Shown piece after piece: positions 28,775 to 56,972 of a stretch of DNA of 64,000 nt. Source of the DNA: Bacteroidota bacterium (GTDB lineage: Bacteria > Bacteroidota > Ignavibacteria > Palsa-1295); NCBI GenBank assembly GCA_018266755.1, contig JAFDZW010000002.1:186001-250000 (forward strand), in the 5' to 3' direction. The notes below the pieces were generated by a model. The model was not told where the DNA came from and did no database searches. It saw only the letters and a program-made list of their open reading frames with translations. Made by a program: the position numbers and the translations under genes. Position 1 is the stretch's first letter, and every line of letters begins with the position of its first letter.

Positions 28775-28890
28775 GTAGTGGCTCAGTTTGAAACGGTGTA
28801 AAGCTCCGTCATTCTGAGCAACGCGAAGAATCCCTTGCTGAAACCCTGCATGGCTCCGCCACAGGGATTCTTCACGTTGCTCAGAATGAC
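28775..28890. repeat. Dispersed hairpin element, copy A
   Basis: It opens with GTAGTGGCTCAGTTTGAAA (28775-28793), the same end sequence as copy B near 40.5 kb. The hairpin 28808-28890 has two 27-base arms (GTCATTCTGAGCAACGCGAA ... and its complement) that match at 26 of 27 positions. The loop shares GGCTCCGCCA with copy B. No transposase gene lies nearby. A clear right-hand terminal repeat was not found in this copy. Confidence 0.8.
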
Positions 28891-28984
28891 GTGCTATTCT
28901 AGAGTCAAAATGCGCCGCTGCGCCGTCCGACTCTATCGTTCAGAAGTCTCACCACTCGGGCACACACCTGGAAGGAGGCTTCGC

Positions 28985-39615: not shown

Positions 39616-40425
39616 TTACTGAAAGATCCCTAAATAGATACCTGCGTTCGCGACGAGACCGCCGCCCTTGGTCGTCGAGAGTTTGTCGGTGTTGCCGAGC
39701 GAAACGTCTTCGTCAGCATACCACGTCCCGATCGACGTACCCTGATAGCCGAGCGATGCGCGAAGCATCAGGAAATTCAGTGGCGCCCACTCGAATGTCA
39801 CCTGCGGCTTAAAGACGATCATGCTTGCAGAGTACGTGTGCGTGATGACGCTCGACGCATTGTCAAATTCGTTGTTGATATCGAACGACGTCCGGTTGGC
39901 TGCCTGTTTGGCCCATACGTTCAAGCTTCCGACGCCGAGTTCGATCCCGGCAAGCACATGGCACCGACTGATGCGGACCGGAAGATTATAATCGAGCGTG
40001 ATCCCGCCGTACCCCGTCGAGACACGCAGCGTGCGCATCAGCGGCTGGCCACTCGAAGCAGTATCGGGCACACAGCAGACCTGCGAGCGGCCCATTGCGA
40101 ACACCCCGCCCACGCGCAGATTCTTCACCCACGGAAACGGAAAGAACAGATGCGCACCGAAGAGCGGGATCGTCGCAGAAAGATCCTGTTTGAGAAACGG
40201 CTGCGAGACGTTCTTGTTGAAGTCATCGAGGTTCGTCATGAGCGCCCCAGAGACGAATCCCGCACCGAGCCACGCATACGGCGGAGCCGAAGCCGTCGCA
40301 TTCGGATTATAAATATCCTCATCGTTCCAGTGCGTCGTGTCGCGGGGGATGCCGGTCTGGGCCTTCGCGGACATCGATGAGAATACCACGCACACCAACA
40401 GCAGGAATATCGCCGATCGCTTCAT
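39616..40425 (-). CDS. Predicted outer-membrane beta-barrel protein
   Basis: 269 residues from the ATG at 40425 (MKRSAIFLLLVCVVFSSMSA, signal peptide ending near AKAQ). Upstream codons to 40488 lack a signal sequence. The mature part has alternating hydrophobic strands with aromatic girdles (LFFPFPWVKNLRVGGVFAMG; MIVFKPQVTFEWAPLNFL) and ends GGGLVANAGIYLGIFQ, like a closing barrel strand. No specific family is recognised. Two Cys (QVCCVP) are unusual for a barrel. It lies downstream of a TIR-bearing hairpin element. Confidence 0.7.
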   Translation of the reverse strand: MKRSAIFLLLVCVVFSSMSAKAQTGIPRDTTHWNDEDIYNPNATASAPPYAWLGAGFVSGALMTNLDDFNKNVSQPFLKQDLSATIPLFGAHLFFPFPWVKNLRVGGVFAMGRSQVCCVPDTASSGQPLMRTLRVSTGYGGITLDYNLPVRISRCHVLAGIELGVGSLNVWAKQAANRTSFDINNEFDNASSVITHTYSASMIVFKPQVTFEWAPLNFLMLRASLGYQGTSIGTWYADEDVSLGNTDKLSTTKGGGLVANAGIYLGIFQ

Positions 40426-40502
40426 ATTATGGGCTATTCGGTTGAATTTCAATGCAGTGTAAACCGTGAAGCGAGAGGTAGAATTCAATTGTGTGCCAGT
40501 CA

Positions 40503-40649
40503 GTAGTGGCTCAGTTTCGACTGTATTCCAACTGTCATTCTGAGCGAAGCGAAGAATCCCTTGATGAAACGCAGTGAGGCTCCGCCATAGAGATTCTTCG
40601 CTTCGCTCAGAATGACTGGTATTTAGACAATTTCAAACTGTGACACTAC
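40503..40649. mobile_element. MITE-like element with terminal inverted repeats, copy B
   Basis: 147 bases. Left end GTAGTGGCTCAGTTT (40503-40517); right end AAACTGTGACACTAC (40635-40649), whose complement matches 13 of 15 positions. Inside is the hairpin GTCATTCTGAGCGAAGCGAA ... with complementary arm near 40590-40616, sharing loop sequence with copy A at 28.8 kb. There is no coding capacity, so movement would need a transposase elsewhere. No clear target-site duplication was seen. It sits between the barrel gene and the dnaX promoter. Confidence 0.75.
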
Positions 40650-40699
40650 CTTACGGTGCATGGTCCTCCTACGCTCTCGGGGTCTGAGCCAAGGTACAG

Positions 40700-40745: not shown

Positions 40746-42440
40746 ATGGCAGAAAAGCAATACCAAGTCACCGCCCGAAAGTGGCGCCCGCAGCGATTCG
40801 ATGAAGTGGTCGGACAGGACCACATCACGCGCACCCTCAAGAACGCCATTCGCGAGGGGCGGCTGGCGCATGGCTACCTCTTCACCGGTCAGCGCGGTTG
40901 CGGCAAAACGACGGTTGCCCGCTTGCTTGCCAAGGCCATCAACTGCCCGAACGCCGCCCAGAACGGCTACGAGCCGTGCAACAAGTGCGAGATCTGCACC
41001 TCGATCACGTCCGGCGCCTCGATGGACGTCATGGAGATCGACGGCGCATCGAATAACGGCGTCGATGACGTCCGCGAGATGCGCGAGAACGTCAAGTACC
41101 CGCCGCTGCAGGGCAAGTACCGCGTCGTGATCATCGACGAAGTGCATATGCTGACGTCGAACGCGTTCAATGCGTTGCTCAAGACGCTCGAAGAACCGCC
41201 CGCGCACTTGGTCTTTATCTTCGCAACGACCGAAGTTCAGAAAGTACTGCCGACGATCCTCTCGCGCACGCAGCGCTATGATTTCCGGCGCATGCAGATC
41301 GACGAGATCGTCAAACATTTGAGACTGATCGCCGATACCGACGGCATCAAAGCCGACGACGATTCGCTCCTACTAATCGCGAAGAAAGCCGACGGTTCGA
41401 TGCGCGATGGCCAGAGCATCTTCGATCAGGCGGTCGCCTTTAGCGGTGGTAAGCTCGAAGCCAGTACGCTTCGCGATGCGCTCAATCTCATCGACGCCGA
41501 TTTCTTCTTCGACGTCACCGACGCCATCCACGAGCAAGCCACCGCAACAGCATTCGCATTAGCTTCGGATGTTGTCACGCGCGGGTATGATGTTGAAGAG
41601 TTCATCGGCGGGCTGCTCGATCACATGCGCAACATCCTGACGGTGATCGTCACAGGCAAGCCGCAGTTACTGGAAGTTGTCAAGCATCATCAGGAGCGTT
41701 ACAGCAAGGACGCGAAGAATTTCAGCGAAGGTGACATCCTGCGCCTGACGGCGATCGGTTTTCGTGCGCTCGAACGGTTGAAGTCATCGCCGTCGCCGCG
41801 TATCACGCTCGAGTTGATGCTCGTCGAGATGACGCTGCTCGAACGCGCGATCGATGTCAAGTCGCTCATCGAAGAGATCCGCGCACTCAAAGGCGCGGCC
41901 AATACACTCCCGCGAAGCACGCCAACGCCCACACCCGCTGCCGCGCCGAGTGCTGCGCCCGCGGCGAAGCCCGCTGCCTCACGTGTCCGTGCGGAAGCTC
42001 CGCCGGCACCAGCTCCGGCTGCTGCACCGGTCGGGCCAAGTGCGGATGTCGGGATGATGGAGATCAAGTGGTCGGAGTTTCTGGAGTCGATGGGTGCGAA
42101 GAGCATCCCGTTCCGGATGGTATCCGACGATATCGAGTTCGCCGGGCTCAGCGGTTCATCGGTGAAGATCACGATCTCGAAGAAGTTTACCGACGATGCC
42201 TTCGCGCGCAATCGCGACGCGTTCATCGAACATCTCCGTCAGTACTTCGGCGAGCCGGGACTGACGATCGACGTCAGCAAAGTCGAAAAGCGCATCTCGG
42301 CGGCGAAGTCCGCCATGCCTCCCGCGCCGAAACCGACGATCAACGGCGTCGAAGCCCCCGCCGTCACCCTCGACGAATCCGTCGAACGCACCGAACTCGA
42401 AATGGCGCTGATGAAGGAGCTGGGGGCGGTGCCGTTGTAA
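40746..42440 (+). CDS. dnaX: DNA polymerase III subunit gamma/tau
   Basis: 564 residues from the ATG at 40746 (MAEKQYQVTARKWRPQRFDE); codons upstream to 40656 are promoter and repeat sequence. Clamp-loader AAA+ ATPase: Walker A GQRGCGKTTVA (about residue 46), zinc-binding Cys cluster CPNA...CNKCEIC (about residues 64-82), Walker B VIIDEVHMLT (about residue 122) and sensor LSRTQRYDFRR (about residue 170). A Pro/Ala-rich linker (about residues 390-435) leads to a tau-like C-terminal domain. No E. coli-type AAAAAAG slippery site was seen. Confidence 0.95.
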   Translation: MAEKQYQVTARKWRPQRFDEVVGQDHITRTLKNAIREGRLAHGYLFTGQRGCGKTTVARLLAKAINCPNAAQNGYEPCNKCEICTSITSGASMDVMEIDGASNNGVDDVREMRENVKYPPLQGKYRVVIIDEVHMLTSNAFNALLKTLEEPPAHLVFIFATTEVQKVLPTILSRTQRYDFRRMQIDEIVKHLRLIADTDGIKADDDSLLLIAKKADGSMRDGQSIFDQAVAFSGGKLEASTLRDALNLIDADFFFDVTDAIHEQATATAFALASDVVTRGYDVEEFIGGLLDHMRNILTVIVTGKPQLLEVVKHHQERYSKDAKNFSEGDILRLTAIGFRALERLKSSPSPRITLELMLVEMTLLERAIDVKSLIEEIRALKGAANTLPRSTPTPTPAAAPSAAPAAKPAASRVRAEAPPAPAPAAAPVGPSADVGMMEIKWSEFLESMGAKSIPFRMVSDDIEFAGLSGSSVKITISKKFTDDAFARNRDAFIEHLRQYFGEPGLTIDVSKVEKRISAAKSAMPPAPKPTINGVEAPAVTLDESVERTELEMALMKELGAVPL

Positions 42441-56860: not shown

Positions 56861-56972
56861 GTCATTCTGAGCATTCTTCTGCGACCATAGGAGCAGAAGC
56901 GAAGAATCCCTTAAGGCAAGAACGAACGTTTGAGCCATGTCCGAAGAGATTCTTCGCTTTGCTCAGAATGAC
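56861..56972. repeat. Dispersed hairpin element, copy C
   Basis: The outer arm GTCATTCTGAGC (56861-56872) pairs with GCTCAGAATGAC (56961-56972). The inner arm AAGCGAAGAATC pairs with GATTCTTCGCTT. A 24-base insertion interrupts the left arm. There is no GTAGTGG terminal repeat, and the loop differs from copies A and B. The right arm holds the stop codon of bioA. Confidence 0.8.

Follow-up and report, generated by a model that had tools for sequence, protein, structure and literature searches.

A probable MITE family with IS1-type ends and a REP-like hairpin in a genome of the Ignavibacteria

The analyzed window is a stretch of 64,000 nucleotides that forms part of contig C2 of a Bacteroidota genome (3.55 Mb, 11 contigs, rated 100% complete). 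A short element located at positions 40502–40650 of this window (149 bp) is very probably (about 90%) a miniature inverted-repeat transposable element (MITE) with IS1-type ends. The observations behind this assignment are its ends, its numerous copies, the target-site duplications of the family, and the occurrence of the same ends, with a duplication of the same length, on an IS1-like transposon of a relative from the same genus. According to the proposed model, the GTAGTGGCTCAGTTT ends would be recognized in trans by an IS1-type DDE transposase, which would insert copies, mostly between genes, with an 8-bp duplication of the target. Instead of a transposase gene, the element contains two facing REP-like units, possibly captured as cargo, which fold into a long hairpin; with its helper absent or decayed, the family has probably ceased to move.

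The left terminal inverted repeat (40503–40517, + strand) consists of GTAGTGGCTCAGTTT, a motif found exactly in other copies and in IS1-type transposons of relatives. It pairs with the right repeat (40635–40649, − strand) at 13 of 15 positions, in agreement with the initial sequence-only reading of this DNA. The long hairpin postulated between these repeats was also confirmed: two REP-like arms of 28 nt (40534–40561, + strand, and 40589–40616, − strand) are 96% complementary and are separated by an asymmetric 27-nt loop (40562–40588), which is conserved among copies. The first 25 bases of the left arm have exact matches in many phyla. The folding z-score of the element is −8.4 for DNA and −8.3 for RNA, and none of 200 shuffled sequences was equally stable. 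The ends originally recognized are correct, but the family-wide duplication register (described below) shifts the limits of the element one base outward on each side.

The GTAGTGGCTCAGTTT motif (≤3 mismatches) occurs six times in the window, compared to 0.94 expected, and this number was reached in none of 100 shuffles. Copy A, previously noticed at position 28775 because of its common left end, arms and loop, does share these parts (28775–28921); its right end (28907–28921) is degraded and matches at only 11 of 15 positions. A third hairpin pair (56861–56972) is represented by its arms only, without recognizable ends.

BLAST analysis of the element against its own genome yielded at least 84 matches (both strands counted; best 40 of 177 first-look candidates), several of which run from query position 23–24 to 171–172, i.e. 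between the ends first proposed. The first 25 bases of the arm (≤3 mismatches) gave 219 matches in the genome, compared to none for a reversed control. Family stretches were taken around sites among the 25-base matches listed (100 of 219) and around the earlier loci. A profile built from five full copies produced 254 matches, corresponding to 103 non-redundant ones (23 nearly full length), counts that refer to the stretches examined and not to the whole genome. Both ends were recognizable (≤6 mismatches of 15) at 44 of these 103 sites, where they coincide with the repeats of the window copy. At least 9 of the 15 end bases were detected at the expected distance on one side or the other in 55 of 76 hairpin pairs (6.1% in shifted controls), and on both sides in 26 pairs (0.0% in shifted controls). 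Since pairs without clear ends retain such traces, most of the pairs examined in this genome derive from a single DDE-type MITE, as copies or as remnants.

Among 39 copies scored for the subterminal types a and b, the order relative to the loop was a..b in nine and b..a in two (L010 and L039); the other 28 had one or no classifiable end. In copy A (L031) the ends are likewise in the opposite orientation relative to the loop (left end of type b, right end unclassifiable). The hairpin thus appears inverted with respect to the element ends in a few copies, fully in L010 and L039 and partially in L015 and L031, as if it had sometimes been flipped inside the element. A different alteration was observed in copy L030 (1501–1657), whose 8-bp duplication is exact: the inner part of one arm has been swapped for the palindrome GGTCGCCGCGGCGACC.

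Comparison of the sequences flanking the 44 copies revealed sharp agreement in a single register, 8 bp long and offset outward by one base from GTAGTGG..CCACTAC; identity there averages 0.543, compared to 0.261 for control flanks taken from different copies. A duplication of at least 6 of 8 positions was detected in 15 copies (0.42 expected), five of the 44 had a perfect one, and 29 fell below 6 of 8. A scan of 76 hairpin pairs, performed without reference to the ends, peaked at the identical register (0.354, mean 0.250). Another peak, not quite as high (left 1, right 15), falls within the element and was read as within-element similarity; no duplication signal was detected at the hairpin edge of the 76 pairs (0.237). 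The 8-bp duplications of the family therefore define a DDE-type MITE of 149 bp. In the window copy itself, the expected duplications TGCCAGTC (40494–40501) and TTACGGTG (40651–40658) agree at 4 of 8 positions, which is not significant (about 15% of control pairs score at least as high), and this copy is probably old or altered.

The position of the duplications bears on another explanation, in which RAYT (Y1) transposases have spread the element as a REP/BIME-type repeat and its outer repeats are incidental. The arms are indeed facing REP-like units (PMC3733652), and five Y1_Tnp loci are present in the genome (C5:1092502, C7:178321, C5:1509403, C5:1124772 and C1:268799). However, the 8-bp duplications are placed at the outer ends and are absent from the hairpin edge. 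Moreover, none of the five Y1 genes has an adjoining unit (the closest units lie at distances of ~1.3 and 3 kb), and three of these loci have no unit in their 4-kb stretches. RAYT-mobilized REPs and REPINs share with the present family the many facing palindromic units between genes, but the lack of units beside Y1 genes and the presence of target duplications distinguish it from them. RAYT-mediated spread was rejected for the window element on the evidence of the Y1 genes and of the outer duplications, and is considered highly improbable.

The window copy occupies the intergenic region between two divergent genes: dnaX on the right (40746–42440, + strand, ATG at 40746) and a gene without a Pfam match on the left (39616–40425, − strand). 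It had been placed just upstream of the dnaX promoter. The element is indeed upstream of dnaX, but the promoter itself found no confirmation, the one weak sigma-70-like site being on the opposite strand (0.5 expected). In the other 12 genomes, BLAST analysis of the dnaX loci detected nothing comparable to the element (matches of 17 bases at most). The left neighbor is not common to these loci and they carry no comparable element, so they offer no alignable empty site.

Another explanation is a functional RNA or regulatory hairpin that is retained because it acts on neighboring genes (termination, mRNA protection or control of dnaX) and whose mobility belongs to the past. Such a role would fit the strong fold, the identical units in distant phyla and the intergenic bias of the family: of 35 reconstructed empty sites, only 12 lie in an ORF of 120 aa or longer, whereas 88.5% of positions drawn at random from these stretches do so, by a crude ORF rule applied identically to both. 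Against it, no Rfam match was obtained at the gathering threshold in the region 28400–57500, no terminator-like site was found, and the element is missing from the dnaX loci of the 12 relatives. In addition, the agreement between arms is barely higher within a copy (26.59 of 28) than between copies (26.33). Of 44 cores, four carry the AACGCG variant in both arms, compared to ~1.5 expected from its frequency per arm. On the basis of arm agreement and AACGCG co-occurrence, selection for base pairing is weak at best. A regulatory function as the primary explanation has very little probability.

We now return to transposition and to the putative mover of the MITE. IS1-family elements have GGnnnTG ends and generate duplications of about 8–9 bp. 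The end motif of the MITE was found without mismatch in five of 13 genomes of the taxonomic family. In G002, a genome of the same genus, identical ends are located at C304:312 and ~4357, each flanked externally by ATAATTAA (an exact 8-bp duplication). These ends begin with GGTAGTG and enclose, besides other genes, a gene for a 261-aa transposase, which matches PF03400 above the cut-off; its best NCBIfam model is IS1, with a score below the cut-off. This 4-kb unit, carrying both ends, represents the related autonomous element expected of a MITE, and the MITE layout recognized in the initial reading is thereby supported: the element is short, non-coding and multicopy, with coinciding inverted ends, a family-wide 8-bp duplication and a same-ended relative. 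Among MITEs whose ends have no more than 4 mismatches, G occupies the outermost position at 12 of 19 left ends, as does C at 13 of 19 right ends.

Nine of the 13 genomes encode relatives of this transposase. One such relative, a 273-aa protein in G011, is encoded next to one matching end, and the contig begins where the other end is expected. In the genome carrying the MITE, only a transposase remnant was identified (67 residues, two stops); PF03400 gave no match and no intact IS1-type transposase was found. No intact transposon was found to carry subterminal type a. The suggestion that the element had been moved by a transposase encoded elsewhere is consistent with the same-ended full-length transposon of the same genus, but an intact partner is missing from its own genome. 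From the shared ends and the duplication length, we infer that an IS1-type transposase moved the MITE in trans; this helper has probably been lost or has decayed in the genome studied.

IS1595 elements have similar ends and also produce 8-bp duplications. A MITE derived from this or another GGnnnTG-ended family distinct from IS1 was therefore considered, particularly as the G011 transposase shows a weak IS1595 match (9e-6). However, PF12762 has no match in the genome carrying the MITE, and the end-sharing transposases of relatives score best with IS1 models. IS1595 was rejected as the mover on these grounds, and an origin from such a family is improbable. With IS1-family transposons and their derived MITEs, in turn, the present elements share an IS1-type transposase with the same ends in relatives, the GGTAGTG start, the 8-bp duplication and a non-coding MITE. 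They differ in that the transposases consist of a single ORF and do not reach the cut-off of the NCBIfam IS1 model, the G002 unit has passenger genes and the MITE has a hairpin as cargo. The accessible part of PMC10017437 does not give a duplication length for IS1.

Inspection of the transposons of relatives provided some additional information. The unit in G002:C304 (L129, 312–4000; L131, up to 3603) is a 4-kb IS1-family transposon whose passengers encode an HTH_3 protein and several proteins without Pfam matches. In G011:C44 (L127, 981–1226), the IS1-type transposase is separated from the right end by the gene for an 81-aa probable membrane protein without a Pfam match. G009:C10 (L124, 1625–2675) contains a degraded IS1-type unit with both ends exact, enclosing transposase fragments together with a 238-aa ORF that has no Pfam match.

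MITEs containing REPs have already been described, in so far as the accessible parts of two reports show (PMC5896051, PMC10969869). According to the former, QMITE2 of Coxiella burnetii is 150–190 bp long, has inverted ends and 7–11 nt duplications of varying sequence, and holds a GTAG REP; its shortened copies resemble plain REPs. The family described here is similarly composed of small MITEs with inverted ends, duplications, an inner REP-like unit and shortened REP-like copies. Unlike QMITE2, as portrayed in that part of the report, it has a CGTC-like unit and ends tied to an IS1-type transposon. CGTC-tagged REPs, in the portion of PMC3733652 available, start with (C/T)GTCAT, mostly form facing dimers and have no dedicated transposase; dimers within longer palindromes were reported there in 2013, unexplained, for Halothiobacillus (H. 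neapolitanus). Both the CGTC/TGTC tag and the facing dimers are present in our element, whereas its outer palindrome, in contrast to what that portion describes, is a transposon end pair with duplications. The 8–9 bp stem that a single CGTC REP forms is lacking: the window unit pairs with itself over only 5+2 bp, around mismatches (−1.9 kcal/mol; 37% of shuffled sequences are equally stable), and for this reason it was not classed as a CGTC REP. The unit of G004, another relative, forms an 8-bp stem. The MITE family is ordinary in kind, and its cargo is unusual.

As a cargo module, the hairpin pair is separate from the IS1-type ends and occurs without them as well. The exact 25-base unit was detected in at least 120 stretches of a wider genome collection, and the 80 listed loci belong to Acidobacteria, Bacteroidales, Chloroflexi, Nitrospirae, Planctomycetes, Clostridia, Cyanobacteria, Verrucomicrobia and others. 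In a sample of the phylum, the unit (within one mismatch) occurred in 44 of 296 genomes, with the highest number of hits (149) in the genome carrying the window, followed by 61 and 42. The listed loci comprise 82 sites, of which 37 have a right arm by pattern; outer repeats were testable at 35 sites and not testable at 45. Outer inverted repeats scoring at least 12 were found at seven of the 35 testable sites, compared to 0.05 expected from swapped flanks, and 28 sites scored below. These repeats differ from one another: they occur in Nitrospirae (L201, L210), Chloroflexales (L154 and L179, from one genome), Deltaproteobacteria (L188), Planctomycetes (L221; L196 reaches a score of 10) and Verrucomicrobia (L217, internally repetitive and doubtful).

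One full copy in G004 (rated 7% contaminated) holds another pair, GTCATTCCCGCGAACGCGGGAATCC, between the same IS1-type ends, and most G004 pairs have no ends. This copy accounts for the only outer inverted repeats scoring at least 12 among 19 pairs (0.11 expected). Three further pairs retain one IS1-like end with 3–4 mismatches, and the 19 pairs show no clear duplication register. Inspection by eye revealed no full IS1-type end pair around units in 20 stretches from G002, G003, G005, G010, G011 and G012, nor in 40 stretches from the more distant G064, G121, G252, G291 and G301. Units within 5 mismatches were absent from three of the 20 stretches of relatives (L309, L317 and L318). Comparison of the element with phages and plasmids gave no match at 1e-5, and literature text searches found nothing related to the arm sequence and nothing for ISMhu11; a text search on REP-containing MITEs likewise matched no paper on five of its six terms.

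The occurrence of ends and palindromes in more than one combination is the basis for a tentative idea, to which we give a rather low probability, that the REP-like pair is a swappable passenger spreading within and between phyla via MITEs of unrelated transposon families. In detail, and with equal reserve, an IS1-type MITE may have amplified the pair in this genome, the identical 25-base unit may have entered approximately five other, unrelated end types, and the ends may have acquired another pair in G004. The lack of full IS1-type end pairs around the units inspected in relatives and in more distant genomes counts against the MITE as a general carrier, as does the fact that most occurrences outside the genome studied are free-standing. 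If exchange among unrelated MITEs does take place, the cross-phylum spread of such palindromes becomes testable, and the dispersal of CGTC-like REPs without a dedicated transposase would be explained. Apart from this idea, a repeat family present at ~100 sites in one genome now has exact boundaries and a putative mover, connecting the MITE literature with REP-like palindromes that lack a known spreading enzyme.

Free-standing single units were also observed in four stretches of relatives (L321, L315, L304 and L307), in some cases followed by coding-looking sequence.
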